A DNA stretch of 64,000 nt, taken from positions 1 through 64,000 of the forward strand of contig PDLQ01000028.1 of assembly GCA_002591745.1 (NCBI GenBank). Reading direction: 5' to 3'. Under the pieces are notes generated by a model. It was not told where the DNA came from. It did no database searches and saw only the letters and a list, made by a program, of their open reading frames with translations. This DNA is from Lewinellaceae bacterium SD302 (lineage in GTDB: Bacteria > Bacteroidota > Bacteroidia > Chitinophagales > Saprospiraceae). A program made the translations under genes and the position numbers. This document shows positions 7,076-63,158 of the stretch, in pieces (position 1 is the stretch's first letter; each line of letters starts with the position of its first letter).

Positions 7076-7286
7076 GTTGTGACTATACCTGAAACGAAGT
7101 AGTTTGTAAATGGTGGGTGGGAACAAACAGCAAAGCCAAACCAATTGGATTGGGATAGGTTTTGGCTGGCAAAGTAGCCGTGGGGATTAGGAGTGAGAGC
7201 AGTTGTCGCCCGCGGAGATCGCCTCAAAATGATGCTGGCCGAATACTAGGGAGCCTTGAGTCGTATCGGATAAACATTTGAATATT
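7076..7286. other. Intergenic gap holding one dispersed-motif copy
   Basis: 211 nt separate the DUF5777 gene from the redoxin gene and break the otherwise tight spacing, so a new promoter may lie here. I could not identify one securely. The gap contains the GCTACTTTG dispersed motif on the minus strand at 7170-7178, extended as GCTACTTTGCCAGCCAAAAC. No coding potential is convincing. Confidence 0.5.
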
Positions 7287-7835
7287 ATGCGCATAATCAG
7301 CAAGCATTTAAGAATCGGTTTAAACATAAGTGTCGTGTTACTTGCTTGTCTGCAATGCGCCTCGCTTTTCGCGCAACGGGACGGCGACTTACAGGTCTAT
7401 ATATTTGTGGCTGAGGAATGCCCCATCAGTATCGCCATGGCCGCTCCTTTACGAGAGGTTGTCGAGCAATTCGGTGACCACGCTGCGTTCACTGCGGTCT
7501 TCCCCAACCGAAAGAGCGATGAGATCAGCATCCGGGCTTTTCTGGGCCGCTATGAACTGAAAGGCTTCGAACCCGTGCTGGACCCTGATCAGAAGATCAC
7601 CCGCCGGCTCGGCGCGACCGTTACACCGGAAGTGGTCGTCACGGACGCGGCGGAACGTATTCTTTACCGTGGCCGGATCTCGGATGCCTATTCCTCGCCC
7701 GGGCGGGTACGTCATGGAAAGTCGAATAACAATCTGGCCAGGGTAATGAGCAAACTGGTAAATGGAGAAGAAGCGACCAGGCCCTGGCCCGAGGCGGTCG
7801 GCTGTTTCATCACCTTTTTCGGGACGGCACCATGA
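7287..7835 (+). CDS. Redoxin/thioredoxin-like envelope protein
   Basis: 182 residues from the ATG at 7287; an in-frame TTG lies nine bases earlier but the ATG places the signal peptide better. After the signal peptide (ending SLFAQ) comes a thioredoxin-like fold with VYIFVAEECPIS, in which only one Cys remains at the usual CxxC place, then TPEVVVTDAAERILYRGRI, a typical strand with cis-Pro and neighbours. The end (VGCFITF) matches the conserved VGC-type tail of redoxins that accompany cytochrome/PHM proteins. The stop overlaps the next start by 4 nt (ATGA), so the two are translationally linked. Confidence 0.78.
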   Translation: MRIISKHLRIGLNISVVLLACLQCASLFAQRDGDLQVYIFVAEECPISIAMAAPLREVVEQFGDHAAFTAVFPNRKSDEISIRAFLGRYELKGFEPVLDPDQKITRRLGATVTPEVVVTDAAERILYRGRISDAYSSPGRVRHGKSNNNLARVMSKLVNGEEATRPWPEAVGCFITFFGTAP

Positions 7836-12808: not shown

Positions 12809-12820
12809 ATACGAATACCT

Positions 12821-15005: not shown

Positions 15006-15171
15006 GCTACTTTGTTAGCCAAAAGCCAAAAGCCAAAAGCCAAAAGACACTAGACACTAGACACTAGACACTAGACTTCCGAACGAGGCACGCTAAGGTG
15101 GCAGTCTAATAGTGGAGCGGTCTAGCGTCTAACATCTAACAGCAGAGCGGTCTTTTTGACTTCAAAGTAGC
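15006..15171. repeat. Composite inverted-motif element (REPIN-like), copy 1
   Basis: The element begins GCTACTTTGTTAGCCAAAAG and ends TTTTTGACTTCAAAGTAGC, so its two ends are inverted copies of the dispersed GCTACTTTG motif. The interior holds two heptamer arrays and short GTCTAAC-type repeats. A second element with the same ends lies at 56485-56590. It fills most of the gap between hemL and the next lipoprotein gene and shows no coding potential. Confidence 0.65.
15017..15073 (+). repeat. Two adjacent heptamer tandem repeats
   Basis: Four units of AGCCAAA (15017-15044) are followed, after one base, by four units of GACACTA (15046-15073). Both have a 7-bp period but different sequence. The first array appears to have grown from the AGCCAAAA end of the dispersed motif copy at 15006-15014. 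Such arrays are prone to slippage. Confidence 0.9.
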
Positions 15172-20163: not shown

Positions 20164-20892
20164 TTAAGGCTGCTTACGGTATTCCGGCTTCAGAATGTCC
20201 TGAAATGTTTTCATCACCTTCTCTACTTTCGGCTTACTCACGTTTTGTACGTAGCTCTGGTTGGGATTGGTGGGGTCTTCGTAATAATCCTGGTGGTAGC
20301 CCTCGGCTACATAGAAGTCACTTGCTGCTTCGATCTCCGTGACTATGGGGTCATCAAATTTACCCGCTTTTTCCAGGGTGGCGACCTTAGCCAGGGCGGC
20401 CTTTTCCTGCTCTGGGCTAAGAAAGTAAATGCCGGAGCGGTATTGAGGTCCACGATCCGGCCCCTGACGGTTCAGGGTAGTGGGGTCGTGCGCCACGAAG
20501 AAAACATCCAGTAGTTTTTCGTAAGTAATGACCGCGGGGTCGTAATACACGACGATAGCTTCGGCGTGGCCGGTTTGTCCGGAAGCAACCTGGCGATAGG
20601 TAGGGGCTTTTTCCGGTCCTCCGGTATAGCCGCTGTATACATCTTCCACTCCATTGATCCGGTCGAAAGAAGCTTCGGTACACCAAAAGCAACCACCGGC
20701 GAAATAGGCTTTTTCAAAATCAGCGTATTGCTCGTCCAGCTCCTCGATGGTAATCCCGTCCTTCATTTCTGGTTGGGTAGTCACCGTTGCCGTATTAACC
20801 GTATTAGATTCGGTTTTGGCTGACGAAGTAGCAGTGTTGCAGGAAAACAGCAGGCCGAACAGCCCGGCGGCGATCAGATTTGAGAGGGTCAT
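20164..20892 (-). CDS. msrA: Peptide methionine-S-sulfoxide reductase, lipoprotein form
   Basis: 242 residues. The N-terminus is a lipoprotein signal (FGLLFSC), so this MsrA is exported, unlike the second copy at 36671. It reduces the S form of methionine sulfoxide in proteins. Active-site motif FAGGCFWCTEASF, then VYSGYTGG, HAEAIVVYYDP, HDPTTLNRQGPDRGPQYRS and EGYHQDYY. It lacks a C-terminal resolving Cys, so recycling would rely on the second Cys of GCFWC. First gene of a three-gene minus-strand group with the hypothetical and DUF4174 genes. Confidence 0.95.
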   Translation of the reverse strand: MTLSNLIAAGLFGLLFSCNTATSSAKTESNTVNTATVTTQPEMKDGITIEELDEQYADFEKAYFAGGCFWCTEASFDRINGVEDVYSGYTGGPEKAPTYRQVASGQTGHAEAIVVYYDPAVITYEKLLDVFFVAHDPTTLNRQGPDRGPQYRSGIYFLSPEQEKAALAKVATLEKAGKFDDPIVTEIEAASDFYVAEGYHQDYYEDPTNPNQSYVQNVSKPKVEKVMKTFQDILKPEYRKQP

Positions 20893-23465: not shown

Positions 23466-23564
23466 AAGCGCAGCAGCTATGTTGTACTATTCCCTCTCAA
23501 TTAGCTTTTTTTTGACTAACAAAGTAGCAGTGTTTAAGCTCGTCCGCCTCGGCCGATGAGCTGA

Positions 23565-24167: not shown

Positions 24168-24367
24168 AGAGCGTAAAAATACAACAAATTGTGGTGCTGT
24201 TTTAGTCTGGAAAGCGGAATGTTTACCGCTGGTTGCCGGCCAATCCACATCAGACACAACATTGACCTTGCTACTTTGTTAGTCCAAATAATCGCCCACA
24301 TTTTGCTAAGAACAATTTTGGTGGCAAATTTGCGGACTTACAACACACAGCAAAAGAAAAGAAAATT

Positions 24368-25726
24368 ATGGCAGAGGTCATTCGGATGCCCCGCATGAGT
24401 GATACGATGGAGGAAGGCAACATCGTAGCCTGGCTTAAAGAAGAAGGTGAAACCGTAGAAGCAGGAGAGATCCTGGCCGAGGTAGAAACCGATAAAGCAA
24501 CCATGGAACTGGATTCTTATTTTGATGGTGTGCTGCTGCACATTGCCATTAAGGAGGGTGTCGTTCCCATAAATGGTGTCATTGCCGTGATCGGGGAAGA
24601 AGGCGAAGACTGGAAAGCTGCCATCGAAGGCTCCGGCGGTAACAGTGCCGCCGATAGTGATTCAGACACCGAAGCAACCGATACCAAAGAACCCGCTCAG
24701 GAAAAAGTAGTTGGGCCGGCCTCCGCCGACGACGTCACGCCGGGTGCTGCCTCCGATAATGGGGCCGCCAGTTCGGACGAGCGCATTAAAGCCAGTCCAC
24801 TAGCCAAAAGCATGGCCAAAGATGCCGGCATCAGCCTGTCTTCCATCTCCGGTAGTGGTGAGAACGGCCGCATCGTGAAACGCGACGTGGAAGCCGCCAT
24901 GACCCAGGCACCCGCACCAGCCGCCCAGGCCGCGCCCGCCCAACCTGCTGCGGCCATGGCCCCTGCTAATCAGGCGACCTCACCCGCTGCCGCCGCTCCG
25001 GCTCCTGCTGCGAATGTACCGGCCTTCTCCTTCAACGGAGGCGGCGAGAATTACGAAGACCAGCCCGTCAGCCAGATGCGCAAAGCTGTTTCCCGCTTGG
25101 TAAGCGGCAGCAAGTTCAGTGCGCCTCACTTCTACGTAACCGTAGAAATCGACATGGGCCGTATCTGGGAAATGCGCAAGAAACTCAATGAGGTGGCCCC
25201 GGTCAAAATCAGCTTCAACGATCTCGTAGTGAAAGCCTGCGCCGTGAACCTGACCAAGCATCCGGTCATCAACTCCAGCTGGCAGGAAGACCACATTCGC
25301 GTCCACCAAGACGTACACATCAGCGTAGCCGTAGCCATTCCGGACGGACTGATGATGCCCGTAGTACGCTACGCCAATATGAAGAGCCTGAGTCAGTTGA
25401 ATACTGAGGTGAAAGAACTCGTCGGCCTGGCTAAGGCACGAAAACTGGGCACCGACCAAATGTCTGGCAGTACCTTCAGTATTTCCAACCTGGGGATGTT
25501 CGGCATCGAAGAATTCACCGCTATTCTAAATACCCCCAACGCCGCTATCCTGGCCGTGGGCGGTATCAACGACAAGCCGGTCGTCAAGGACGGCAAGATC
25601 GTACCCGGCAAAATCATGAAGGTTACCCTGAGCAGCGACCACCGCGTGGTGGACGGAGCTTCCGCCGCGGCCTTCCTGAATGACGTAAAAGCTACTTTGG
25701 AGGATCCGATCCGGTTGCTGGTGTAA
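24368..25726 (+). CDS. pdhC: Pyruvate dehydrogenase E2, dihydrolipoyl acetyltransferase
   Basis: 452 residues. Lipoyl domain with the modified Lys43 in ETDKATMEL, an acidic then Ala/Pro-rich linker, a peripheral subunit-binding domain (IKASPLAKSMAKDAGI, GRIVKRDVEAA), a second Ala/Pro linker and the catalytic acyltransferase domain ending with the active-site SSDHRVVDGA. It transfers acetyl groups to CoA in the pyruvate dehydrogenase complex. PDH rather than another 2-oxo acid complex is favoured by the single lipoyl domain starting MAEVIRMPRMSDTMEEG, typical of bacterial PDH E2. E1 and E3 genes are not in the window. Confidence 0.9.
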   Translation: MAEVIRMPRMSDTMEEGNIVAWLKEEGETVEAGEILAEVETDKATMELDSYFDGVLLHIAIKEGVVPINGVIAVIGEEGEDWKAAIEGSGGNSAADSDSDTEATDTKEPAQEKVVGPASADDVTPGAASDNGAASSDERIKASPLAKSMAKDAGISLSSISGSGENGRIVKRDVEAAMTQAPAPAAQAAPAQPAAAMAPANQATSPAAAAPAPAANVPAFSFNGGGENYEDQPVSQMRKAVSRLVSGSKFSAPHFYVTVEIDMGRIWEMRKKLNEVAPVKISFNDLVVKACAVNLTKHPVINSSWQEDHIRVHQDVHISVAVAIPDGLMMPVVRYANMKSLSQLNTEVKELVGLAKARKLGTDQMSGSTFSISNLGMFGIEEFTAILNTPNAAILAVGGINDKPVVKDGKIVPGKIMKVTLSSDHRVVDGASAAAFLNDVKATLEDPIRLLV

Positions 25727-26396: not shown

Positions 26397-27254
26397 ATGG
26401 TAAAGCCAAATCCTTATCTCCGCTGGTCCAACATCTGTCTTCTGGCCGGTTTCGGCTGGCTGGTTTATCGGCGTGGGATGCCCTGGCGCAACCTGGTCTG
26501 GGACGAGGGAGCTTTTCAGCCGCTGCTGGAGCTGATTGGGGTAGATTGGGGCTGGTGGGTAAGTAGCCCGGCGGTAGAGGTCGGTTTACTGCGACTGGAC
26601 TGGCTGGTTATTATTATCTGTTGGTTAGGAGGCCTGGCCTTGTTGCTGGTCCAACGGACCCCAAAGCAGATTCGCAATTTTTTTCTTGCAACGACGGGAT
26701 CCATTCTACTGCTCAACCTGCTGTTAAATACCAAAGGGAATTTCTGGCGAGTCGGTTATTTCATTGAACACGCTGCTCAGGTAGCTACGCCGTTTTTGTT
26801 GCTTTATTTAGCTACGCTCACTCGGCGTTCCAGTCTGACCTGGTGGCTAAAAATTGTGATTGCGCTCACCTTTATCGGTCACGGATTATTTGCGTTGGGG
26901 GTACATCCCGTTCCTCCTCACTTCGTCTTAATGACTACGGAAGGCTTGAGTTTTATGGGGATTAGCAAAGTAGCAATGGGCGAGGTTACGGCCGCCAAAT
27001 TATTTTTGTTCACCGTCGGAATTATGGATCTGCTGGCGGCATTACTGCTTCTGCTCCCCGGCAAAAAATGGATGAAGGCGGCCCTCTGTTGGATCATTCC
27101 CTGGGCGATACTGACAACTTTAGCCAGGCTCTGGTCCGGCGGGCAATTCAGCTCCGGGATTAGCTTCTGGTCTTACTGGGTGCCGGAATTTTTAGTGCGG
27201 GTGCCGCACGTATTGCTACCGGTTTTGTTGTGGAAGTTAGTTGCGAAAAAATGA
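26397..27254 (+). CDS. Polytopic membrane protein of unknown function
   Basis: 285 residues from the ATG at 26397; an in-frame TTG at 26355 is less plausible. About seven hydrophobic segments, with many Trp residues (WDEGAF, WGWWV) in the first loop. There is a conserved-looking HGLFALGVHPVPPHF between helices and a final VPEFLVRVPHVLLPVLLW. I do not recognise the family. A copy of the dispersed motif is embedded in frame at 26966-26974, coding SKVAM. Confidence 0.75.
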   Translation: MVKPNPYLRWSNICLLAGFGWLVYRRGMPWRNLVWDEGAFQPLLELIGVDWGWWVSSPAVEVGLLRLDWLVIIICWLGGLALLLVQRTPKQIRNFFLATTGSILLLNLLLNTKGNFWRVGYFIEHAAQVATPFLLLYLATLTRRSSLTWWLKIVIALTFIGHGLFALGVHPVPPHFVLMTTEGLSFMGISKVAMGEVTAAKLFLFTVGIMDLLAALLLLLPGKKWMKAALCWIIPWAILTTLARLWSGGQFSSGISFWSYWVPEFLVRVPHVLLPVLLWKLVAKK

Positions 27255-28408: not shown

Positions 28409-30238
28409 TTATTTCCAGTCCTTCCGCAACACCATCGACTTTACCAACAACGCCCCCTCAATCGGCTGCGCAAGTGAAATGCTGATGTCTCTCATTGTCG
28501 AATCAATCTGCAAATAGCTGCTCACCTCATTCCATTTTCGCGGGTAAACCTCCTTTCGCTGCACCAGGTCCCTGGTAGCCAGGTCTTTATTAGGGAAAAC
28601 CGGAGCGGCCATGCCACTAAGCTGGCGACCGGCAGTGATTTTAATGTTACAAGGGGCATCCACTGCTGCGGTTGCGTATTCAATCGTACAGTGGTAACGA
28701 CCCGGTTCGATCACTTTCACCGGCCAGCTGATACCATCCTGATTACTACGGATGTTTTCTGCCCAGTCATTGGCCCAGCCGTATTGATCGTGAAACTTAG
28801 CCTCGCCGAAGGGCTCACCTTCGTGGGCCAGTAAACTGAGGGCACTTACCTGAGGGTGGCCGATTTCAATGGGAGGCGCCACCAGGTCCGATCGAGACAA
28901 GTCAGCGGTAAAATTGGCGTAGTCGTCTGCCAGAGCACGATGCCCAGGTTTTTCGCCATCGTAAAGATTGGTTTCTTGGCCGGGGTCATCGATCAAGTCA
29001 TAAAGTTCATGCACGCCCGGCTTCCTTAGAACGTAGCGGTAACGGTCATTGCGAAAACCACCAGGGTAATTGACGAAGGGAAAGCCCTGTTTGATCACGT
29101 AAAGGTTCCGTTCCGTCCAGGACCGCCCGTTACCCTGAAGTAACGGCAACAGGCTTCTGCCGTCCAGAGGATCGGGCCATTCAGCCGGTGAGGCGCCCGT
29201 TAGTTCCAGTAATGTCGGTAGTAAATCCAGGTGAGCGGCCGGGGTGGTGATCTCACCGCTGAGTGCTGGGAAGCCCATCCGTTTTCCAACTTTACCCAGC
29301 CGGATGCCGAACGGAACCCGGATCCCTCCCTCGTCCACCTGGCCTTTCTGACCGCGTAAGCCCATTCGGTAACGATCACCATTGGGGCCATTATCCGTGG
29401 CAAAAATGACGACGGTATTGTCGAGTTTACCGCTGGCCTCCAATTCATCCAATAGCCTGCCGATGGCTTGGTCGTTAGCTTCGATCATGGCGTAGATGCC
29501 AGCGTTGTAATCGGTCAGTCCCAGTGATTTATAGTGGGCAAACAGACTATCCGGTCCCTGCACCGGCGTATGCGGAGCCTGGTAAGTAAGCATACAGAAG
29601 AATGGAGCTGTTGCTTCTTGCATGAAGTGCAGCGCAGTGTCCGTGAGTACGTCCGTCAGGTAAGCTGAAAAAGGAACGCGCTCACCGTTTTCATTTTCCA
29701 GATGGTAGTCGTAATAACTGTTGTAATGCCCCATGCTGAAACCCAGAAATTCCTCAAATCCCTGTCCGGCAGGATTGTACGGATAAGTTGCCCCGTTATG
29801 CCATTTACCAAATAGACCAGTCCGGTAACCACGCTCGGCGAGCACTTCGGCGATGGTGGTCACGCCATCATCCATCGTCTCGGCGCGGCGGGTAACGAAG
29901 AGTGCGCCCGTGCGTTGAGGGTACTGACCACTCAAAAAAGCCGCCCGGGTGGGTGCGCAAACCGGATCAACGTAAAATTGCGTAAACCGGTGGCTTTGGC
30001 GCAGCAACTCGTCCGTACGTGGCGTCCGGATACTGTCGTTGCCGTGCAGGCTCAGGTCGCCGATGCCCTGGTCGTCGGTAAGGATGAAGAGGAAATTGGG
30101 TAGCTCGCCGGTTGGCTCGTCCGTTTTATTTTCAGCATTGCAGGCCAATAGCAGGCAGCAAGCAATGATGGTGAAGTTTATTTTGACTGGCAAAGTAGCA
30201 ATGTTAATGAATGGACTAAAGTAACTTTTTACAAGCAC
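28409..30238 (-). CDS. Sulfatase (arylsulfatase-like), lipoprotein
   Basis: 609 residues from a GTG at 30238; the start is uncertain because the first ~17 residues precede a lipoprotein signal (IIACCLLLAC). Type I sulfatase: metal site FLFILTDDQGIGD, formylglycine motif CAPTRAAFLSG (C-x-P-x-R), GLFGKWHNG, FATDNGPNGD and GQKGQVDEGGIRVP. The C-terminal extension may be a carbohydrate-contact domain. It should hydrolyse sulfate esters, probably on sulfated polysaccharides, in the periplasm or at the surface. It needs an anaerobic or FGE-type maturase, which is not in the window. The dispersed motif overlaps its N-terminal codons at 30191-30199. Confidence 0.9.
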   Translation of the reverse strand: MLVKSYFSPFINIATLPVKINFTIIACCLLLACNAENKTDEPTGELPNFLFILTDDQGIGDLSLHGNDSIRTPRTDELLRQSHRFTQFYVDPVCAPTRAAFLSGQYPQRTGALFVTRRAETMDDGVTTIAEVLAERGYRTGLFGKWHNGATYPYNPAGQGFEEFLGFSMGHYNSYYDYHLENENGERVPFSAYLTDVLTDTALHFMQEATAPFFCMLTYQAPHTPVQGPDSLFAHYKSLGLTDYNAGIYAMIEANDQAIGRLLDELEASGKLDNTVVIFATDNGPNGDRYRMGLRGQKGQVDEGGIRVPFGIRLGKVGKRMGFPALSGEITTPAAHLDLLPTLLELTGASPAEWPDPLDGRSLLPLLQGNGRSWTERNLYVIKQGFPFVNYPGGFRNDRYRYVLRKPGVHELYDLIDDPGQETNLYDGEKPGHRALADDYANFTADLSRSDLVAPPIEIGHPQVSALSLLAHEGEPFGEAKFHDQYGWANDWAENIRSNQDGISWPVKVIEPGRYHCTIEYATAAVDAPCNIKITAGRQLSGMAAPVFPNKDLATRDLVQRKEVYPRKWNEVSSYLQIDSTMRDISISLAQPIEGALLVKSMVLRKDWK

Positions 30239-36533: not shown

Positions 36534-36585
36534 GACTTCAAAGTAGCAAAGCGGGAGTGCTCATAATCACTGCTACTTTGAAGCC
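36534..36585 (+). terminator. Compact inverted pair of dispersed motifs
   Basis: GACTTCAAAGTAGCA (36534-36548) and TGCTACTTTGAAGCC (36571-36585) pair at 14 of 15 positions around a 22-nt loop. The hairpin begins 5 nt after the BT_3928 stop codon and could act as a terminator. It is made of two class B copies of the dispersed motif. Confidence 0.65.
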
Positions 36586-39098: not shown

Positions 39099-40235
39099 TT
39101 ACTTCAAGCTCACCCGTTCCCCCGGAATTGCCAGCCGTATCCTTCGGTCCTGACTAGCCGAAGACTCGAACAGGGCTGAGCGTAGCGGATCGAAGTGCAG
39201 TTCTTTGGTCCAGTGGCCTTTACCGTAAATACCGTCGGCAATGTTGGTGACCAGACGTTTAATCTGGTTGTGGTCGTTGATGTCGTACTGGCGTTCGCCG
39301 CGGCTACCCTGTTTGGGCTTAATTTCCAGCCAGCCCCCGGCGGGATCTTCCCGGAGGCGGCGCTCGACGAAGGTGTGGAGAAGTTCATAGGCGGCAGGGC
39401 TCAAATTGGCTTCTACCGGTGCCTTAAAACTGGTAAGGCCGGAAAGACGGATGCGGCGATAGTTTTTGTGCGTAGTTGCATCCACCCCTTTCAGTAAAGC
39501 CAGGCTTAATTTTTGTTCACCCGGCAGGACGGCGGCTTCGGAAAGTTCCTTTACCCAGCTGAGTGCCAGGGCAAAGAATAGCATAATGAGGTTGGTCTTG
39601 AAAATAGCGGAGAAAAGGAGCAAGCTGGTGACGTCGTCGGTAAATTTATAGGCCTGGGCCAGGATGGTGACCAATGTACAGATAACGGAGAGCCAGGCCA
39701 GGATGGGGAGCCTTCGCTTATTGAAGGAAGTCCAAAGCACCACGGTAAGGAAAGCCAGGGTGAGAAGAGCGTAATAAACGTCCAATTCGCCGATGAAACC
39801 GGAAGTGCGTCCGCTGAACAGCCCACTGACCGTAGGCAGCAGAGAAAATAAGAAAGGCAACCCGATTATAAGGGGCCAAAAGCGGTTCTTGACCAAGGGT
39901 TGAAGCCAGGTTGGCAGGTTTCGGAACCAGGGTAGTGCCAGGAGGATAAACAAGCTGTTAAAAAGTGAGAGGATACTCCGCCCGGCCGATAGTCCGATAG
40001 CCATATCGCCTTGGGTTCCCAGGTCAGCACTGCTACTTTGGTAGCCATAATAGGCCTCTAACAAGCCCGAAACACTCCAGCAAAATACGGAAAGTGCCAG
40101 CCAGACCTGTCCAAAATCATCCTGTCGCCGGCCAATGTGCCACCAGATACCTAAAAGTCCCAGCCCGGCGAAAAGGCAAACGGCAAATTGCCAATAACCA
40201 AAGAGTTCCAGCAATTGCGGCGCGGCGGTGTGCAT
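39099..40235 (-). CDS. Membrane protein with soluble C-terminal domain
   Basis: 378 residues. Seven hydrophobic segments fill about residues 10-230, followed by a cytoplasmic part of about 145 residues (RIRLSGLTSFKAPVEANLSPAAYELL, GERQYDINDHNQIKRLVTNI). The layout of a 7TM sensor-like N-terminus and a small effector end recalls membrane regulators, but I do not recognise the family. A dispersed-motif copy at 40032-40040 is read as YQSSSA within it. Confidence 0.7.
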   Translation of the reverse strand: MHTAAPQLLELFGYWQFAVCLFAGLGLLGIWWHIGRRQDDFGQVWLALSVFCWSVSGLLEAYYGYQSSSADLGTQGDMAIGLSAGRSILSLFNSLFILLALPWFRNLPTWLQPLVKNRFWPLIIGLPFLFSLLPTVSGLFSGRTSGFIGELDVYYALLTLAFLTVVLWTSFNKRRLPILAWLSVICTLVTILAQAYKFTDDVTSLLLFSAIFKTNLIMLFFALALSWVKELSEAAVLPGEQKLSLALLKGVDATTHKNYRRIRLSGLTSFKAPVEANLSPAAYELLHTFVERRLREDPAGGWLEIKPKQGSRGERQYDINDHNQIKRLVTNIADGIYGKGHWTKELHFDPLRSALFESSASQDRRIRLAIPGERVSLK

Positions 40236-41562: not shown

Positions 41563-42930
41563 ATGAAAAAAAGAACATTTCTTAAAAATGCCGCCATCTT
41601 CGGTGCCGGCGTCGTCCTGTTCCCCGGTTGCGGCGATGGGGGGGCTAACAAAGTAGCAATGTCTGACGAAGCCACCAGCTCCCCGCTCCCGGACCGACTC
41701 AGAACGGCCCACATCGGCGTTGGCAATATGGGCGGAGAGGACCTGGCCGCCATATCCTCCCACGATAAGGTGGACGTAGTAGCCCTTTGCGACGTAGATG
41801 CCACCGCATTGGCCGCTGCCAAAGCACTGCATCCGGACGCAAAGACCTACCGCGATTACCGAACTATGTTAGAGGAATTGAAAGATGAGATCGACGCCGT
41901 CGTGGTCTCCACCCCTGATCATACCCACGCCCCGGCCTCCATGTTGGCCATGAACCTGAACAAGCCGGTTTACTGTCAAAAACCCCTGACTCACCACGTT
42001 TCCGAAGCCCGGGCCATGCGAAAATTGGCCGCTGACAAAGGGCTGATCACCCAAATGGGAATTCAGGTACACTCTTTCTACGATTATAAACTGGCCACCC
42101 TGCTGATCCAGGACGGCATCATCGGTAAAGTACAGCGGGTACGGGCCTGGTCACCCAAAAACTGGGGTTACGACGGGCCGGAACCTACCGGTGAAGATCC
42201 GGTTCCGGAAAATCTGGACTGGAACCTCTGGCTGGGCACCTCGGCCGAACGCCCCTATAAAGCTGACGTCTACCACCCCGGCAATTGGCGCAAGCTGGTT
42301 GATTATGGTTGTGGAACCCTGGGCGATATGGGCGTTCATATCTTCGACACACCTTATAACGCCCTGGCGCTGGACGTACCCAAAACCATTACTACGGAGT
42401 GCCGCCCACCCAATAATTTCGGTTTCCCGGAGAAGAATCGGGTAACCTATACTTTCCCCGGCACCGAATTCACAACGGAGGAATTTGAATGGGTCTGGTA
42501 TGATGGCCCAGGCGCTCCGGACGAGCACGAAGAACTAGTATTGCCCAACGGTGATCCTCTGCCCGAGCAAGGTGCAATGTTCATTGGCGAAAAGGGCCGC
42601 TTCTTGCTGCCCCACTTCATGGAGATGCCCCGACTGATCGTTGATGGTGAGTACCAGGATTTCGACGTTGATAAATTTGAACTCGGAGAGCCGGTACGGG
42701 ATTACGCTTCCGAGAGTCCCAAACATTACCACCAATTCGTGGATGCCTGCTTAGGCAAGGCCGAATGTACTGCACCTTTCGACTACGCCGCCCGCCTGAC
42801 GGAAACGATCCTGCTGGGCACCATTGCCGGTCGGTTCCCCGGACAAACCCTACACTGGAGTAACGAGAAAGCAGCCTTCGAAGAGGAGGAGGCGAATGTA
42901 TTTTTGGAGTCGGAGTACCGGGTGTTTTAG
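41563..42930 (+). CDS. Gfo/Idh/MocA oxidoreductase, exported
   Basis: 455 residues. The N-terminus KKRTFLKNAAIFGAGVVLFPGC is a secretion signal with a possible lipobox, of the type used by secreted oxidoreductases of Bacteroidota. NAD-binding Rossmann motif HIGVGNMGG, DAVVVSTPDHTHA, and VYCQKPLTHHVSEARAM (the EKP-type motif is QKP here). The C-terminal substrate domain contains GDMGVHIFDTPY. The substrate is probably a sugar derivative, unidentified. A dispersed-motif copy at 41649-41657 falls in the linker after the signal (ANKVAMS). Confidence 0.9.
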   Translation: MKKRTFLKNAAIFGAGVVLFPGCGDGGANKVAMSDEATSSPLPDRLRTAHIGVGNMGGEDLAAISSHDKVDVVALCDVDATALAAAKALHPDAKTYRDYRTMLEELKDEIDAVVVSTPDHTHAPASMLAMNLNKPVYCQKPLTHHVSEARAMRKLAADKGLITQMGIQVHSFYDYKLATLLIQDGIIGKVQRVRAWSPKNWGYDGPEPTGEDPVPENLDWNLWLGTSAERPYKADVYHPGNWRKLVDYGCGTLGDMGVHIFDTPYNALALDVPKTITTECRPPNNFGFPEKNRVTYTFPGTEFTTEEFEWVWYDGPGAPDEHEELVLPNGDPLPEQGAMFIGEKGRFLLPHFMEMPRLIVDGEYQDFDVDKFELGEPVRDYASESPKHYHQFVDACLGKAECTAPFDYAARLTETILLGTIAGRFPGQTLHWSNEKAAFEEEEANVFLESEYRVF

Positions 42931-44136: not shown

Positions 44137-44334
44137 ACGCGCTTCGCGCTTGTTGACAGCCCCTGGCCTTTTGAACGATCGCTTAAGCGATCTTTTGGGG
44201 GAGTTGAAATCTGAGAAATTGTACTAAACTCTTCGATCAGCTTACCCAAAAGCGAAGCGTTCAAAAGTCGCGCATCGACGTCCAAAAGGCCGCAGGCCGT
44301 CCAAAAGCAAAGCATCCACAAGGCCAACGGCCGC
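44137..44334. repeat. Mini-hairpin island C between convergent genes
   Basis: Small hairpins include GCGCTTCGCGC (44139-44149), the perfect palindrome GATCGCTTAAGCGATC (44177-44192), GGCCGCAGGCC (44288-44298) and GGCCAACGGCC (44322-44332), with TCCAAAAG spacers. The centre, from TTTTGGGGGAGTTGA at 44193 to TTACCCAAAAG near 44252, matches the core of island A in its edges and length. Likely the same repeat family as island A. Confidence 0.72.
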
Positions 44335-45429: not shown

Positions 45430-46071
45430 TCAAATTTGGTTTTTTATGATAAGGCTTCCGCCCCGGACAATGTTTTATCGGATGACTTCAAAGTAGCAAA
45501 GTTAAGTCTATAGTGATGATATTAGCGGGCAGTGGGTGCCGGCTCAAAGACGGGACGGGCTGAAGAATCAGCGGGAATAGGTCTACGGAGCTTTTAAAAC
45601 CGGATCGGAGCCTGTTGACCCTGTTTTGCTTCCCCGAATCAGTGGTGAACTGGTAAAACGGGCCTTAAAGCTTTCAATTTATCGAAATATTGTATATGAT
45701 ATTTGGATGACAAATGAAAAGTCCTATTTTTGTGACTGGATTGCATTATACCTATTCTATGGAATGCCTTTCGGCTTCCGCGATTAGGTTCTGAATTTTT
45801 ACCCTGCATTTACACCTAAATATATCCATCAGAGCCTAAGCGCCATAACCGTTCATTTGGGAAAATCGGTATTGTTGACTTCCCCCCTTCAGGTCAACTA
45901 AGCCGTAAAAAAGAAACTGCTTTACGTGAATTCACCCGTTTTCGGGTTGGGTTGCTCGTAAGGCATTAGTTACGTTACACCGTCCGTTCTCGGGCAACTT
46001 ATCTATTTACCAAAAACCGCAGCACTGCCCAATGGGGCCGCATAGTTGCAAAAGTTTAATCCCTACATATA
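45430..46071. other. Long leader region of the giant T9SS gene
   Basis: 642 nt without a convincing gene. It holds a dispersed-motif copy (45489-45497), a consensus promoter (45702-45732), a weak hairpin (TTGAC and GTCAA near 45877-45899) and then AT/GC-mixed sequence. A transcript from the promoter would have an untranslated leader of roughly 330 nt. I cannot match the leader to a known riboswitch by eye. Confidence 0.55.
45702..45732 (+). promoter_or_regulatory. Bacteroidota-type promoter for the giant gene
   Basis: TTTG (45702-45705) and TATTTTTG (45725-45732) match the -33 and -7 consensus with a 19-nt spacer, the best full match seen in the window. It points toward the 46072 gene. Confidence 0.55.
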
Positions 46072-49000
46072 ATGAAGCATTCGTTTACCCAATTGCAGTT
46101 GTTTTTACTGCTATGTTGCCTTGTGGGCGGCTTTTCCGGCCTACGGGCGGAAGTTCCCTTCGTCAACGATCTGGTCAGCCACGATCACCCCACTTCCACT
46201 CAATTGTTCAATGCCGCGGAGCCTATCCCTTTTCTGGGGGCAATGTTGCAGGCCCAAACGGATCAGCAATATGCCGGACAGACGTCAATGATGCCTTGTT
46301 TGGATATCATTACTGTAGGCGACGACCAATCACTCTGTTTCGGCGATACCGCTACTTTGATCGGCTTGGCCGTAGAAGGGTTGGATACTTTCCAGGGTAC
46401 CTGGTTCGTACTGGAACCGGGGGGAAGCGGGCTTGACGACGATGGTGTCTTCACGAACGTCGATGGATCGCCAGCTAGTGAATTGATCGTGCCTGGTTCG
46501 AATCTCTACCAATCCAATAGTGTTTCTGGAAGAGATACCATGCGCTTCTCCCGAGGTATGATGGACGACCCTAACCGCACTGATTATCTAGTGGTCTTTA
46601 GCGCTAGCGGCAGTTGTGGTACTTCAGAATCCGACACGATGTTGGTTCGTTTCGACCTGGAACCAAACCTGACACTGGACGTGAATAGCGGCGGAACTAC
46701 ACAGACACTGGAAACAGGGGCTTTCCCGGTTGGTGCCGCTTTATCCGGTGCTTACTGTTCCGGCAGTGATCTGGAACTCGTGCCGTCAGTAATTAACAAC
46801 CCGACGCTTTCCGGTAAGCCGGTCTTTCTGCGGGTAGAATTAGTGGATACTGCCGGTTTATTCGGTTTTGGTGCAACCCCCCCTGCCGGTGATACTTTTA
46901 ATATTCCACTTCCAGCCTTCGAAGTCGATACTATCCTGCAGAATTTAGGCGACGAAGACAAAGTGGCCAGCATTAAATTGCGCCCCTACCACGAGACGGA
47001 CGGCGATATGACCGATCCGAACAGCACTTACAATGAGGGCATTGATATAATAGGTGACAGCATCGAGTTCGATCTGGTCGTCTTCTCCGAGCCAATCGCT
47101 TCCTTCGGTGGTAACGATACCATTTGTTTCGACGCAACCGTCCCCCTGGACTTCACTGGTACGCCAAACACCCGGGTTTTCTACCGGGATACCATTACGA
47201 TGACTACGGACTCCGTCGACCTGAACGCACTGGGTAATTCTCAGGTCATCTTCAATAACGTAACCACGAATCTTTACTTCGTGATCGACAGTCTGGTACG
47301 TCTGGACCCGCCATTCTGTGCCGCCAGCCCCGCTACCATTGCCGGTATCGCCGCACAGCCATTCATCGTACTGGACAGCATCGGGGTTACCACTGACGCC
47401 GTGGACAGCATTGCCTGTGATACGTTGAGCATCGTGAGTTTCGACTTTTTTGCCAACGACAGTGCTAGCGTATACTCCTTTAGCCTGACCAATAATATCG
47501 ACGGGTTCGATTCTACTTACGTTGCCCAGGGGGAGGATACGCTCTCTATCAACCTGGCGGAACTGAACTTCGGTGGTATGGACGCTCCACGCACCATTAC
47601 CTTTTACGTTAGTGGTGTAGTAGATACTTCTTCTACGGCCAATTGCGACAACCCTATTCTTCAGGATTCTTTCGTCATCTTCGTCGATCCGGAACCAGCT
47701 ATTCGGATTGGCCTGGCCGGGAACAGTGCCTTTTCCGACGATACGCCGATGATGTTGTTCGATACTTTCTGTATCACCGACGACGTGGCTTTCTCCGGTA
47801 TCATTACCAGCGACCCGGCCGCCAGCGGTTTACCGCTTTACGTGCGCCAGATTGACTCGGTATATAATGTCGAAACCAACGTATTGATTTCGGTAGACAC
47901 CGTGTTCCTGCCAGTGGACGCTGCTTACATGAGCAATGCTACTTTGGTAGCCGATAACCCTGACAGTATTGGCTTCGTACGTCGAATTCTGCCTTATTTC
48001 GAATCTGACGCTGCAAATGCGCCCGTTGATTACGACGATGATTCTGAATGCTCAGGAGGAGAAGTTCGTCTGGAAATTCTATTAACCCCCGCTCCATTGG
48101 AGCCGGTCCTGGCTTTTAGTACAGATACAATTTGTGGTATGCCGGGTAGCAACCCTGACATTCTGATCACTGGTGGTACTCCGGGCGCTACTGTTTCTTA
48201 TGTAACAGTGAGTAACGGTGTCAACGGCGGCGTAAGTAGCACTATTCTTGACGTCAACGGTGAAGCGACCATCAGCTACACACCCGTTATTGATAGCGGA
48301 ATGGTTGTAGCTCGTCTGCAAGCTACCTTCACGGAGTGTGCCCGCCTGCTAAGCCAAAGCGACACTTTAATCGTGAAGCCCCGCCCAACCGGTACGATCA
48401 CCGCTCTGAACGATAGTATTTGTCTTACCGACACTGCTTACGTGGTTTTCAACACTGACTTCAGTTACAATGGCGTCGATTCTCTCGAATTACGCTACCG
48501 AATCATCGTTCCTGGAGATGCCAGCGGACCAGCCACCGACCTGATTGTTCGGGATGGTGATACCATTTTCTCTGGACTGCTGCCCGATGATCGTGTATTC
48601 CAACTGGAGCGTTTACGTCACGTATTCGGGATGAATTGCACCAATCAGGATGACGTATTCGATACTATTTATGTAGACAACGAGCCACAACTGATGATCG
48701 ACGTCAGTGAGGTCAGCGTAAGCCCTCTTACCATGGCAACGGTTACGACCGACCCGATGGGAATGGATTCAGTTTACGTGGAAACCTGTGCTGCGGATAG
48801 CCTCTTCCTCATCTATGGTGTGCCGAACGCTATGACTGATACGAGCCAGTTCAACGATTCGCTTTACGTCGCACTTACTATTGTAGATCCACTGGGCGTG
48901 ACCCCAGCCGGTATCGGAACGACCACAGTTTACTTCGATATCGACGAGCCTGGCGCTTATGATACCCTGAGCCTGATCAACAATACCAATGATACGGCCC

Positions 49001-52000: not shown

Positions 52001-55000
52001 TCATCAACGAATTCCCCATTGCTACTTTGGAGTTCATGGCCAACGATACGGTCTGCTTTAATGAGTCAGTGGAAGTAGTATTCCGTAGTATGACCGGAAT
52101 CGCGCCTTATGAGGTTACTGTAAATGGTATGAATTTCACCGACGTTCGCGACGGAGATACGCTGTTTAACTCCGGCCCATTGACGATGAACACCAACTTT
52201 ACGATCACCTCCGCCAGTGATTCCAATGGCTGTATGCTACCGATGGAGTACCTGGACAGTGTAGTCGTAGACGAAGTGCCGCTGCTGAGTACCGATATAG
52301 AACTGTTTAGCCTGACCAACTCCAGTCTGGGTACCGAGACCCTGGTGGACGGTGAGCTTGAACTGGATACCTTCTGTTCTTTACAGCGCCTTGAATTCAC
52401 GGGAATGACGACATCCACCAATAACGCCGGTGATCCGGTATGGGTACGGGTAGAACTTACCGGTGACGTTAATGCCATTTGGCCTGCTTACCTAGGAGAT
52501 ACAATCTTCTTCCTACCGTTCGGTGATCTGGGCTCCGCATTGGATATGCCGGCTATTGCCAATAATAGCAACATGACCATCGAGGCCGATATCTTCCTGA
52601 CGCCTTACTTCGAATCCGATCCCTTCGGTATGATGCCGATGATTGACGGTGCAGAATGTAGTGGTGCCGAGGATACGCTCAGTATCGCCATCGACCCTCG
52701 CCCGAATGCGAATCCGACCTTCTTTGATGACGAGATTTGCTCCGGTGACACCTTCACTTTTGATCTGTCTACGGCGATCGATAATTTCCAGATGGGAACT
52801 ACTTTCTCCTACACGACCAGTTCTACCGGTACGGCCAGTGCTGCACCGCGTCCGGTAAGCTCGGAGGATGATATTGCTGACGTGATCACGAATATCAGCA
52901 CCAACCGTGACACCGTTACTTACGTTGTGACACCATTCAGCCCCAGCGGCTGTGAAGGTGGTGACTTTGAAATCGAAGTGATCGTTCGTCCGGAACCAGT
53001 ATTGATTGCTAATGCCGACACCATCTGTAGCAACTCTGAATCTATGCTCGAGGTTACTCGCCAGCTCGGTGTGATCAACCCGACGAGTTACATCGTTACT
53101 GACGTGGTATTCGACGCGGATTCTTTGACTGCCATCGACGTGATCACCCCCGTGGATACCTTTGACCGTACCGTATCAGTGCCGGGTGAGGACAACCTCT
53201 TCATTCGTGATGAGTTTGTCAATATCAGCTTCGATACCCAGCGGGTAGATTACTACCTCGTGCCATTACGTAACGGAACCGGTTGTACTGGTGATACGGT
53301 TGTATTCAGTCTCTACATTGCTCCGGAACCATTGCTGCCGGCTGGTCTTAGCGATACCGTTTGTACGGATGTGCGTTTGGCTATCGACTTACAGGAAACT
53401 GTACTAAATGGTGTCGCGAGCGATTTCATCTGGGAGTTTGAGAGCGCCGATCCTTTCATCGAAGGAATCACGATGGGGCCACAAACAAATGGTGTTATCA
53501 ATGACAGTCTGCGACTGAGTGCCGGTGCCGGTACCCAAGTACGCCGGGTGACTTACCGCGTAGAAGCAGTTGGTCAGAACGGTTGTCCATTGGGCGTTCC
53601 GGACACTTTCCTCTATGACGTATTCATCAGCCCGCAGATTCTGCTCAGCATCGACGCTCCGGGTAGTGACTTCATCTGTACCGGAGAAAGCAACATTATT
53701 GTTGAGGCCAACGCTAGCAATACCATCGGTATGGTGAACTATAATTGGTTCGTTACCGATCAAGATCCTGGAGTGACCAGCGTCAACATCATTAATCCGA
53801 CCGGAAACGGTTCTTCCGTTTCTCTGGAAGCAATTGGTAACGGCCAGTTTACCATCAATGTAGAAGTTGATGATGATGGTGGTTGTACTGCCATTGCCAG
53901 CCGCACCGTCACCGTCTACGATGAATTGGTAGCCAGCTTCGATACGACTACCGTCGGTCTTTCTACGGTAGACTTCTTCGATACCTCAGAAGGCTTCCCG
54001 ACCCAGTGGATGTGGATCTTTGATGACCCCGCCTCTGGCAACGCTGATACCTCGATGGTACAGAACCCGACGCATACATTTACCGCACCCGGTACTTACG
54101 ATGTAAGTCTGCAAGTGATTCGCCAGGCTTTCTGTCCGGATACCGCAACGGTCATTCAGCAGGTTTTCGTTGGCTTTACGCCAGTGGCTCGCATCGACAC
54201 CGTTATCCTGAACGAAGGCTTTAATATCATCAGTTTTGATGTTGATCCATCTAATGACAGCATTACCAGCGTATTCGGTGACGTAATTGCTAACGGCAAC
54301 CTGGTTGATATCTTCAGTGTCGATCCAAACTCCGCTACTCAGTTTGAAACCTTCGATCCGAACCTTCCTCCCGTATTCAACAGCCTCGATATCATCCGCC
54401 CTGGATTTGGTTACTTCGTGGAAATGGCTCCGGGAACTACTGACACTATCTTCCTGCCGGGGCTTACGCTGGATCCTCAATTGCGTATCGACCTGCGGGC
54501 CGGCTTCAACTTTGTAGCTTACCTCTACCAGCAGGATACTTTCTTCAATAGCTATTTTGATGACCTGATCATCAATCCGGCTTTTGTAGATGCATTGACC
54601 TATGAGAACAGCGTGCTGATCGATTACGATCCTAACCCACTATTCAACCCGCTGGATTCTCTCCATAACGGACTGGGTTACGTGATTGAAACCAATGCTT
54701 CGCTGGACGGAAGCGTTTACCGGAGCGATGAGCCTATCTCGACTTCCAACCTCGAGTTCCTCTTCGGTTACACCGACCTGACGGATGCCGTTGGACAACG
54801 GATCAATATCCTCGATGAAGACCGCAATTACCGCGGACACTTCGTGATCGGAACTGATGGAATCCTGATGCCACAGGCGGTATTCGGTGACTTGGCGCAC
54901 ACTTCCGAAGTGGAGGGCATGCTCCCAGGCACTAAACTGCTATTTGAGTACAACAACCAACTACTGGACATCAACTACATCTTCCAGGGTGACTGGAGCC

Positions 55001-55382: not shown

Positions 55383-55397
55383 ATTAAATCCCATAAA

Positions 55398-56484: not shown

Positions 56485-56590
56485 GCTACTTTGTTAGCCA
56501 AAAGACTATAAATAAAGGACTTTGAACCTCAGATATTCTGCAGATGAATGTAAGTCTATAGTGTCTAACCGTTTTTGACTTCAAAGTAGC
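56485..56590. repeat. Composite inverted-motif element (REPIN-like), copy 2
   Basis: Begins GCTACTTTGTTAGCCAAAAG and ends TTTTTGACTTCAAAGTAGC, the same two ends as the element at 15006-15171, with a shorter interior that shares GTCTAAC near the right end. The copies differ mainly by the heptamer arrays in the first. No coding potential. Confidence 0.65.
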
Positions 56591-56774: not shown

Positions 56775-56779
56775 CGCCG

Positions 56780-58513: not shown

Positions 58514-58560
58514 GCCCCTTTAACTGCGTACATCACCTGAGTACCAACTAACCGAAAGAA

Positions 58561-61211: not shown

Positions 61212-61214
61212 CGA

Positions 61215-63158
61215 CTAGTGGTTGATCAGAATTTGTTGGGAGGATAATAGCCTGCTGCCGCTACGGACGGTGAGCCGATAACTTCCGGGTATCAGATTTT
61301 GTGGCAAGAGAAAACTTCCATTTTCAGAATGGGATGAACCACCAGCACTGCTACTTTGAAGTCCCGCTAGCACTAGCTCTCTACCCAGCACGTCTGTAAG
61401 AGTAACGATAGCATCCGCCGGTAGATTATAGAATTGAATTTCCGCGCCGGCTGGAGAGGGATTGACGAACCGGAGACTGGTAAGGTTCCTCGTATTCGTA
61501 TTCTTTGTTGAACTGAGTTCATCGATGCCGAGGTAGAGAACAAAACCGTCATGGTCACTGGCCCTGGCCAGTTGAAAGGCATTATTTGCATAATTGATGG
61601 AGGCATCGGAATTGCCCCTGGCGAAGGCAAATTCATTGACGGTCAGTCCGCTTAGTTCGTTGTGCAGGCAGTGATCCAATTGTTGGGCAGAACCCTGAAA
61701 AACAAAGCTATATTGCTCTTCTTCCGGGAGTGATGCAGCAGCGTTGACCAACGGAGGGTTTACTATTTCTTCTACCGGAAACTGCGCCCCCAAACTAGGC
61801 AGCCCACTGATCTGGTTGAAGACGTCCACGTAGCCGTCCGTGAACTGAAAAGCGTTGTAATCACCGACAACCACCAGGTTTTCGTCGCGTAAATTCTCTA
61901 CCATATTGGCGATACTGATGGCTTGTTCGTTGCGGCGGATGCGGACCTCTACGTCATCGTCCACCCCATTGAGGGAACGAATGTGTAAGTTGAGTACCCG
62001 CAAGGTTGTAGACTCGTCGCCTGGAACGTTCAACTCCACCAACAGGGGAGGACGATTGTGGAGAAAACCCCCACAGCTGCAAAATTCGTTGCTGCCCAGT
62101 TCGGTAAAGGCAGGTGGGTCGATCCGGTTGTGAACCAGGTAAGCTACGTTGAGAAAACCTTCGTCCGGGGGCGCGAAACCCTGGTAATCTCCCAGTTCCG
62201 GGTCGAGTTGGCGAAGTCTGAAAATGAGGTCTTCGATCTCATCCGATCCACCGGTTTCCTGGATAGCCAGTACATCGGGAAAGTGTAGCTGCTCACCAAT
62301 GTAGGCGACGATTTTATTCAAACGCAGACCGTAGTCACTTTCGTCGTTACGCAAAAAGAGGGTGTTGAGGGAGGCGACGGTAATTTCGTCATCCGTTCGT
62401 GCCCGTACGGGGCGGGTAGGCTCCACCAGTTCCACCGTCGTTGGCTCGATGGGGCTAAGTTCGTAGCCGAAACTGAATTGTTCCAGGATGCCAGTGCCCT
62501 CGATCACATCACCGGCGTTGTGGAAAATAAAGTTGCTCTGGCCCAATCCGTTGGGATCATAGTTCATCAGTTCAGGGTTGCCGTCAAATACGGGCAGATC
62601 GGGCAAGCCGGGGGGGAGCAGCCCCGGCTCGCGAAAGGGACGATCTACGGAAGTAACGTGTACGTCAACGGAATTAAAATCATCCGACCCGGAGGCGGCG
62701 GTGACCGAAAAATTCAGCAGCATGCCCTCGAACCTTTCCAGGGGAGAGGCTCCGTTGACCAGACTGGTGCCCGGGTCGAAAGCAACGGGAGTCAGGGGTG
62801 TGCCGGAAGACAGTTTATTGATGGTCACGGAGGCACCCAGGGCAGTTTGTCCGCTTAATTCCTGTACCTGACCGGAAATGAGTACGCGATCACCTGGAAC
62901 CAACTGGAAGGTGTTGCCGTCGTCAATCAGTAATCCTTCGCTGGTGTTGGGGTCGCCGTCGCCCTCGGCATCCTGAATGTACGCAAACTCGGAATTGGCG
63001 AAAGTGACTACCGAAGTGTCGAGTTGTACGAGCTGTCCGAGGAACGGGCTGACCGAGCCGCTGCCCTGAACATCATGGATGCTCACCGCTGAGGTCTGGG
63101 CGGTAAGAGAAGCAAAGAAGAGGAGAAACGGGAGGGTGAAAAGGAGAGAAGTTTTCAA
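61215..63158 (-). CDS. T9SS-secreted endonuclease/exonuclease/phosphatase protein
   Basis: 647 residues with a signal peptide (to TAQTS). The N-terminal ~250 residues carry an OB-like/LTD-type beta domain (VQLDTSVVTFANSEFAYIQD, GDRVLISGQVQEL). The EEP fold follows: VASLNTLFL, VLAIQETGG (metal-binding Glu), LNLHIRSLN, VVGDYNAF, and the terminal ASDHDGFVLYL. This arrangement resembles secreted nucleases of the ExeM type. The end is a T9SS sorting domain (FVNPSPAGAEIQFYN). A -7 element lies 27 nt upstream. It may digest extracellular DNA, which is inferred. Confidence 0.88.
   Translation of the reverse strand: MKTSLLFTLPFLLFFASLTAQTSAVSIHDVQGSGSVSPFLGQLVQLDTSVVTFANSEFAYIQDAEGDGDPNTSEGLLIDDGNTFQLVPGDRVLISGQVQELSGQTALGASVTINKLSSGTPLTPVAFDPGTSLVNGASPLERFEGMLLNFSVTAASGSDDFNSVDVHVTSVDRPFREPGLLPPGLPDLPVFDGNPELMNYDPNGLGQSNFIFHNAGDVIEGTGILEQFSFGYELSPIEPTTVELVEPTRPVRARTDDEITVASLNTLFLRNDESDYGLRLNKIVAYIGEQLHFPDVLAIQETGGSDEIEDLIFRLRQLDPELGDYQGFAPPDEGFLNVAYLVHNRIDPPAFTELGSNEFCSCGGFLHNRPPLLVELNVPGDESTTLRVLNLHIRSLNGVDDDVEVRIRRNEQAISIANMVENLRDENLVVVGDYNAFQFTDGYVDVFNQISGLPSLGAQFPVEEIVNPPLVNAAASLPEEEQYSFVFQGSAQQLDHCLHNELSGLTVNEFAFARGNSDASINYANNAFQLARASDHDGFVLYLGIDELSSTKNTNTRNLTSLRFVNPSPAGAEIQFYNLPADAIVTLTDVLGRELVLAGLQSSSAGGSSHSENGSFLLPQNLIPGSYRLTVRSGSRLLSSQQILINH

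Follow-up and report, generated by a model that had tools for sequence, protein, structure and literature searches.

The first 64,000 nucleotides of contig PDLQ01000028.1 of Lewinellaceae bacterium SD302 (the window, meaning the whole stretch of DNA analyzed; contig C69 of genome G000) contain 21 exact matches to the 9-base word GCTACTTTG, 11 on the plus strand and 10 on the minus strand. An earlier note on this DNA had listed the copies with a chance expectation of about 0.5 and had suggested a repetitive extragenic palindromic (REP)-like repeat, an uptake-like sequence or a nucleoid-protein site. All 21 copies were recovered at the positions and on the strands listed, and in 100 dinucleotide shuffles of the window the word occurred 0.49 times on average and 3 times at most. 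The word could be a tag by which self DNA is recognized in uptake or repair, a kind undescribed in this bacterial branch. Of the readings considered, the likeliest is that such a tag serves the import of DNA or recombination linked to import, which is quite possible though short of probable.

The word is abundant throughout the genome and has conserved flanks

The source genome (5,478,864 bases in 147 contigs) belongs to the genus of Neolewinella maritima, the nearest named loci being those of Neolewinella marina, N. litorea, N. maritima and N. agarilytica. Across this genome, 1,533 copies of GCTACTTTG were counted (770 forward and 763 reverse, on arbitrarily oriented contigs), as compared to 80 copies (43 forward and 37 reverse) of the same word read backwards, which serves as a rough control; the genome-wide count that the earlier note had proposed is thus far above control. 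The small contigs C3, C4, C5, C10, C20, C30 and C40 (about 9 kb) lie outside all counts. A detailed sample of 691,285 bases (13% of the genome) with 198 copies was used for anatomy, gene context and spacing, a smaller one of 631,285 bases with 181 copies for the flank logo, and gene boundaries were obtained with a simple home-made gene caller.

The extended form of the word reads CAYT-GCTACTTTG-N(1-2)-AGYC-AAAA. Upstream of the core, the logo of 181 copies shows C at position -4 (92%), A, T or C at -3, a pyrimidine (Y) at -2 and T at -1 (88%), and the bases farther out are only weakly preferred, with no common sequence past about 20 bases around the core. Within the window, C at -4 and T at -1 each occur in 18 of 21 copies, so that the flanks of the extended consensus described before are real, although the bases preceding the core are looser than had been stated. 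The two proposed classes of following sequence, A and B, were found again in 106 and 62 of the 198 sampled copies according to our patterns, with 30 copies in neither class. One-mismatch words as a whole are mildly over-represented (197 against 145.9 expected in the 631,285-base sample). Fully flanked near-copies with one mismatch number 23, as compared to 138 exact copies under the same flank rule, and all 23 are changed at two of the nine core positions, the sixth base in 17 cases and the eighth in 6. As neutral decay would scatter the changes, this looks like tolerance of a reader and not like decay.

Selection or spread targets the DNA, not the encoded peptide

In the sample, 108 of the 198 copies are intergenic and 90 lie in genes; intergenic DNA makes up 12.8% of the sample and has a copy density 8.1 times that of genic DNA. 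The in-gene copies are read in several frames, giving ATL on the same strand (32), KVA on the opposite strand (32), QSS (14) and two rarer frames (9 and 3), and the stop-containing frame of the word is never used. Codon usage, which could have explained the in-gene copies, was ruled out by two codon-preserving controls. Shuffling of codon order within genes left a mean of 6.2 copies (maximum 11 in 20 shuffles) and resampling of synonymous codons with the proteins held fixed left a mean of 11.4 (maximum 16 in 10), both far below 90. These results support the view, already put forward from the variety of frames in the window, that selection or spread acts at the level of the DNA and not of the peptide. 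Eight in-gene sites could be aligned to a homologue; three of them showed no insertion, one is a conserved ATL of a 2-oxoacid dehydrogenase E2 and four lie in gap-rich stretches, indicating that the word is mostly placed where the protein varies.

The copies exclude each other on the same strand

No orientation bias was detected. Copies inside genes lie on the strand of the gene in 44 of 90 cases, and the G-rich strand (20-kb windows), a stand-in for the leading strand as the replication origin was not located, carries 102 of the 198 copies (p = 0.72), which is the outcome of the strand-bias check proposed earlier. The lack of a tie to either strand makes a promoter, a terminator, a translocase guide or an ordinary Chi site less likely.

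The mean density is about one copy per 3.6 kb, or about one per 7 kb on each strand, and neighboring copies alternate between strands too frequently (127 of 176). Among pairs closer than 3 kb, 17 are on the same strand and 92 on opposite strands, and when strand labels were shuffled over fixed positions, 53.0 +- 5.2 same-strand pairs were obtained and 17 or fewer in 0 of 2,000 shuffles. In 300 runs of a placement null, with copies set at random according to the densities seen in intergenic and in genic DNA, the expectation below 3 kb came to 90 +- 10 pairs on the same strand, 44.5 convergent pairs and 45.1 divergent ones, and 17, 41 and 51 were observed; with convergent and divergent pairs both near the null, one-sided action of the word was rejected. 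Counted per successive 1-kb bin, same-strand spacings number 2, 7, 8, 29, 24 and 23, and with a coefficient of variation of 0.56 to 0.57 they are more regular than random. Opposite-strand pairs closer than 200 bases are in excess (22 against about 10 expected), as are the divergent pairs among them (14 against about 5), and in all 26 two-copy intergenic regions the copies are on opposite strands. When only copies with both flanks were considered (n = 147), 6 same-strand pairs below 3 kb remained against 27.9 +- 3.7, none of them less than 1.7 kb apart, and 11 of the 17 same-strand exceptions in the full set include a copy without one flank. The same test detected no exclusion for E. coli Chi (67 sites in 350 kb, 23 same-strand pairs against 23.6) or for two frequent words of G000 (47 against 43.9 and 27 against 25.2). 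Below 3 kb the two strands are thus filled nearly independently, each with its own exclusion zone, save for the excess of close opposite pairs, which suggests a reader that follows one strand, or handles one orientation at a time, over about 3 kb. The passages of PMC7811141, PMC1626085 and PMC1939737 that deal with spacing and orientation make no mention of such strand-resolved exclusion, which goes beyond the earlier note.

Several known kinds of signal were considered and rejected. The core resembles the -7 box of Bacteroidota promoters, TAnnTTTG. It is one base short of that box, and the copies disregard gene direction and often lie in genes. As to terminators, convergent gaps hold 9 of the 108 intergenic copies, which matches their share of gap DNA, and 56 of the 82 occupied intergenic gaps contain one copy only. 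A replication-strand signal was dismissed for lack of bias, with GC skew as stand-in, and so were translocase guides of the FtsK orienting polar sequence (KOPS) or FtsK recognition sequence (FRS) type, which are strand-biased on each replichore. The HIP1 element of cyanobacteria is a short palindrome, whereas GCTACTTTG differs from its own reverse complement.

Related species carry a different word, with a like spacing in two of them

In order to follow the word into relatives, as the earlier note had proposed, GCTACTTTG was counted in 59 genomes, 20 of them congeners. Each of the 20 congeners has 81 copies or fewer, the highest ratio to control being 2.6 (46 against 18, G009). The highest counts outside the genus, modest ones, are 179 in G033 (against 66 for the control) and 127 in G056 (against 27). 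A second dispersed word, TGCACCTGC, came to light in stretches of 22 to 60 kb from six congeners and was tallied genome-wide as GCAGGTGCA; G002, G006 and G008, for which only short contigs were obtained, were omitted from one congener read. The tally reached 598 + 576 copies in G002 (control 42), 419 + 389 in G003 (22), 633 + 648 in G005 (47) and 629 + 603 in G014 (25). Nine of the 20 congeners have the second word at 8.8 to 49 times control, four at 2.3 to 5.1 times and seven at 1.7 times or less, and G000 itself contains 31 copies against 60 of the control. A different word in the relatives is likewise an addition to what had been noted from the window.

The extended form of the relatives' word is CYYTGCACCTGCGGCCGCGCCY followed by A-rich sequence, with a conserved stretch of about 18 bases. 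In an ungapped alignment, TGCTACTTTG and TGCACCTGCG agree at 6 of 10 positions, and in each of them it is the same T that changes most. The ungapped comparison of the two profiles was not significant (142 of 500 column shuffles were equally good), and common descent of the two words is therefore only suggestive; they are apparent dialects within one genus. Same-strand pairs of the second word below 3 kb are depleted in G014 (13 against 25.1, 0 of 2,000 shuffles), less firmly in G005 when taken alone (7 against 12.4, 49 of 2,000) and in the two pooled (20 against 37.5, 0 of 2,000). The exclusion rule is broken in G005, where two gaps (one by pooled gene calls) each hold a pair of copies on the same strand.

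Thin sampling (13 to 40 kb) of nine other genomes, G024 being omitted for its short contigs, yielded no comparably strong word, and weak candidates were seen in G021 and G025. Four of the relatives' loci of at least 15 kb passed the dispersed-word filter, namely L052 with the relatives' word, L069, L116, and L077, whose word looks like coding repeats. L069, from a metagenome-assembled genome (MAG) of an uncultured Saprospiraceae, contains CCTTTCGG 13 times in 21 kb, with complementary flanking bases in 12 of 13; this sequence, enriched in some genomes of the family such as G068, G071 and G123, is probably a hairpin such as a terminator. L116, from a Bacteroidia bacterium MAG, contains AAAATCCAT 17 times over 21.6 kb on both strands, sometimes extended by GGATTT. 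Local repeat arrays were also observed in congeners, at L030 3738-5512 (G001), L038 1633-2637 (G005) and L034 20-459 (G003).

Uptake and recombination proteins of the genus

ComEC was found in 21 of 21 genus genomes and DprA in 20, the exception being a 55% complete genome. The nuclease family PF12705 was matched in all 21, and in 20 of them the proteins, predicted from open frames of about 1,000 to 1,150 residues, may be read as AddB-type. None of these three tracks the presence of a word. In five of the 21 genomes a second, shorter PDDEXK_1 protein was noticed (open frames of 923 to 1,009 residues), including that at G000:C83:10661-11338.

According to the passages of PMC8459023 that describe it, transformation of Riemerella anatipestifer, also a member of the Bacteroidota, requires ComEC, DprA, ComF, RecA and four more proteins, two of which, a CarboxypepD_reg outer-membrane protein and a DUF5689 protein, are adjacent, and this machine differs from the known pilus-based ones. 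DUF5689 was matched in only one of the 21 genus genomes, G000, where contig C115 encodes a barrel-like protein followed directly by a lipoprotein with three DUF5689 domains. The lipoprotein matches NCBIfam NF052645 (the M949_1556 family) with an E-value of 3e-34, yet with 118.6 of the 475 bits of the cut-off; it has no sequence match in PDB, and plasmids gave four distant matches. For the barrel, only partial matches were found in the other 20 congeners. The pair could be a candidate receptor in this species only, a lead and no more. TonB barrels of G003 and G018, which match part of the C115 barrel, were set aside, as the one in G003 adjoins a putative PnuC. Divergence of ComEC as a mark of a changed reader was also set aside, because the ComEC of G000 is long-branched but E2 likewise gives a deep lineage.

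A phage carries the relatives' word

The extended form of GCTACTTTG occurs as a single copy in each of 18 viral stretches, and no virus tagged with this word was found among them. The relatives' word occurs in 96 viral stretches, with two copies in 12 of the 80 listed, and in the two-copy stretches most copies have the full pyrimidine-rich flank. One tailed-phage contig of 38,716 bases from IMG/VR (L356 and L359), of which 22 kb were examined, contains four well-flanked copies and has genes for tail and tape-measure proteins and for an S49 peptidase. Tailed-phage stretches with at least two copies of TGCACCTGCG..CGCGCC are L356/L359, L325, L334, L344, L349, L350, L355, L367 and L390. As similar contexts of the relatives' word recur in other contigs, these viruses are related. 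A word on a phage favors a function inside the cell, for example a guard against a nuclease that reads Chi, although tags might also be gained by a resident prophage alongside its host.

Copies within the window

By our flank rule, both flanks are present in 15 of the 21 window copies and one flank is missing in six (7170, 25691, 26966, 30922, 46351 and 56582). Intergenic copies with both flanks are located at 23520-23528 (minus), 24270-24278 (plus) and 45489-45497 (minus), and one without one flank at 7170-7178 (minus). The fully flanked copy at 15006-15014 (plus) shares its gap with the opposite-strand, equally flanked copy at 15163-15171 (minus), and the fully flanked copy at 56485-56493 (plus) shares its gap with that at 56582-56590 (minus), which lacks one flank. 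The intergenic copies at 36539-36547 (minus) and 36572-36580 (plus), both with complete flanks, form an inverted pair. Inside genes, both flanks accompany the copies at 30191-30199 (minus, sulfatase), 33494-33502 (minus, photolyase-related DPRP gene), 40032-40040 (plus), 41649-41657 (minus, GFO/IDH/MocA oxidoreductase), 47938-47946 and 52021-52029 (both plus, in the 3,067-codon gene) and 61350-61358 (plus, endonuclease/exonuclease/phosphatase family), and one flank is missing from those at 26966-26974 (minus) and 30922-30930 (plus). Two further matches look like chance occurrences of the bare 9-mer: that at 25691-25699 (plus) in the 2-oxoacid dehydrogenase E2 gene, which encodes the ATL kept in three relatives, and that at 46351-46359 (plus) in the 3,067-codon gene.

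At 15017-15076, starting 3 bases past the copy at 15006-15014, two tandem repeats with 7-base units, AGCCAAA (4.3 units) and AGACACT (4.6 units), lie side by side. Imperfect related repeats with CGTCCAAAAG lie at 31985-32032 and, far off, at 44258-44307, and the window contains two peptide methionine sulfoxide reductase genes (20164-20892 and 36671-37267).

Discussion

The distribution of the word matches the descriptions of the uptake signal sequence (USS) and the DNA uptake sequence (DUS) in the relevant passages of PMC1626085, PMC1939737 and PMC3630211, and this makes an uptake-type self tag the likeliest of the identities considered. The traits given in those passages include a lack of orientation bias, a spacing more regular than random, close oppositely oriented pairs and a preference for non-coding DNA in spite of many coding copies (PMC1626085), as well as DUS dialects among relatives (PMC3630211). 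The word could then be a species-level self tag made of a 9-base core and about 12 semi-conserved flanking bases, maintained at about one copy per 7 kb per strand by selection or recombination drive on the DNA itself. Most likely it would mark DNA for import, or for recombination after import, by a pilus-independent route of the ComEC type, and we infer an import system, or a recombination system linked to import, as the reader. Reading would be strand-resolved, the DNA being either single-stranded or double-stranded and read in one orientation, such that a second same-strand copy within about 3 kb would add nothing, and the exclusion length might reflect the length of DNA handled per event. 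A fuller and more tentative proposal is that of a strand-resolved genome tag, in which each strand is evenly tagged with a species-specific word that would be read on single-stranded DNA during import or recombination; such a tag would be independent of pili, switched within the genus at the same spacing of about 3 kb, present on at least one phage and the first self-DNA tag of Bacteroidota known to us.

A number of observations weigh against a tag for DNA import. No transformation data were found. The type IV pilus/type II secretion ATPase (PF00437) gave no convincing match in the 14 genus genomes searched: the matches are partial, cover about 83 of the 370 positions at 20 to 25 bits, with 7 of 14 barely reaching the cut-off of 24.9, may be read as other ATPases and compare with 410 bits for a true match in G041. 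The pilus machinery of the known systems thus seems to be missing, as judged from this ATPase family, the only one searched, and for this reason the word is not classed as a DUS or USS. ComEC and DprA are present also in species with neither word, and the profiles of the two words do not match significantly. The strand-resolved exclusion would not be expected from an orientation-blind surface receptor and is unmentioned in the USS and DUS passages cited above. As for the candidate receptor, the CarboxypepD_reg and Plug matches of the C115 barrel fall below the Pfam cut-offs, the adjoining MbnP and MauG/MbnH-type genes suggest a metal role, and the DUF5689 match is a one-in-21 coincidence for a family chosen from a paper. 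The pair is absent from all 20 congeners, nine of them rich in TGCACCTGC, and therefore it is not the general reader. Finally, a tailed phage bears the relatives' word, and for a phage the benefit of a Chi-like or self-protecting site is plainer than that of an uptake tag; these copies moved weight from the uptake reading toward the Chi-like one.

The main rival, which we regard as rather doubtful, is such a Chi-like site, at which AddAB or another repair nuclease scanning one strand would be switched by the word from degradation to recombination and self DNA would be marked. A nuclease of this kind scans one strand, so each strand needs copies of its own, and strand-resolved reading comes naturally; the nuclease family is present throughout the genus, AddB-type proteins being read in 20 genomes, E. 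coli Chi, with 67 sites in 350 kb, has a similar density, and phages may carry Chi, as the contig with four well-flanked copies of the relatives' word would. However, E. coli Chi is strand-biased (16 of 67 on the plus strand) and lacked same-strand exclusion in the same test, whereas GCTACTTTG is unbiased. Known Chi sites have 5 to 8 bases, and a conserved stretch of 9 fixed and about 12 semi-conserved bases, or about 18 in the relatives, is longer than that. Moreover, seven of the 20 congeners have TGCACCTGC at no more than 1.7 times control and none is rich in GCTACTTTG, although all possess the nuclease family. A polar binding site for a chromosome-organizing or barrier protein, such as a loop anchor or a translocase barrier with oriented sites at intervals, seems unlikely: orientation-dependent spacing, a long flanked motif, independence of gene direction and some excess of close divergent pairs would fit, but strict pairing is lacking, as the convergent and divergent counts below 3 kb show, and both words are missing in several congeners.

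Deletion between direct copies is considered improbable. At a recombination-prone site, direct copies would recombine and delete the intervening DNA and inverted copies would merely invert it, which agrees with missing same-direction pairs and with inverted pairs that are tolerated and, below 200 bases, in excess. The shared stretch is short, though, and ill-suited to unaided deletion over 1 to 3 kb, so that a dedicated recombinase would be needed; this process can be combined with the favored reading as a self tag. Least probable by far is a mobile short repeat spread by a transposase, whether REP-like or resembling a miniature inverted-repeat transposable element (MITE). Very many identical cores in one species and 81 or fewer in any congener are what such spread might leave, but nothing is common beyond about 20 bases around the core, and genes contain 90 of the 198 copies, each in a frame free of the stop, whereas units of REP and REP-associated tyrosine transposase (RAYT) are mainly extragenic. 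In addition, the in-gene copies at C1 88990, 210751 and 322006 align without insertion, which is weak evidence since the homologues are 42 to 66% identical and four other sites are gap-rich. Among the identities first suggested, the uptake-like sequence fits best and the REP-like repeat poorly, and a nucleoid-protein site is possible.

In the passages used of PMC1626085 and PMC7811141, uptake sequences are known from just two families, each of which has type IV pili, and no report of them in Bacteroidota was found in the literature surveyed, which took in few subscription papers. If the word is an uptake tag, self-specific DNA exchange would have arisen separately in another phylum and with different machinery, and the genus would offer a natural series, in which one species has its own word, nine are rich in the other, four are intermediate and seven are at or near background. 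If it is Chi-like instead, the site would be unusually long, would change within a genus and would be mimicked by a phage. The strand-resolved spacing is a quantitative clue as to whether tags of the uptake type are read single- or double-stranded, and the same question can be put to Haemophilus and Neisseria genomes.

Comparison with known systems

With Chi the word shares an apparently strand-resolved reading, a similar density, the presence of a nuclease family of putative AddAB type and, for the relatives' word, occurrence on a phage; it differs in its lack of strand bias, its long motif, its same-strand exclusion and its absence or change in congeners. As in the machine of Riemerella anatipestifer, G000 has ComEC and DprA as well as a barrel, weakly matched to CarboxypepD_reg, that lies next to a DUF5689 lipoprotein; unlike there, the C115 neighborhood includes MbnP and MauG-type genes, and the barrel is likened by a weak domain match. 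The text of the Riemerella paper contains neither 'uptake sequence' nor 'uptake signal' (PMC8459023). Like the DUS dialects of Neisseriaceae, in which, according to the passages used of PMC3630211, related species have different high-copy versions of a word, the genus studied here has more than one word, but the two words have no more than 6 of 10 aligned bases in common, and their profile match is not significant. From the USS of Pasteurellaceae (AAGTGCGGT in Haemophilus influenzae) the word differs in its Bacteroidota host, in the lack of a convincing type IV pilus ATPase, in a density of about one per 3.6 kb as compared to about one per kb, and in that same-strand copies avoid each other and opposite-strand copies do not. 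In other respects the resemblance to that USS, as far as described in the relevant passages of PMC1626085 and PMC1939737, extends to about 1,500 copies, a 9-base core, both orientations without bias, a spacing more regular than random, an AT-rich stretch 3' of the core, close inverted pairs, a preference for non-coding DNA with many copies in genes, and, apparently, variant words in relatives.

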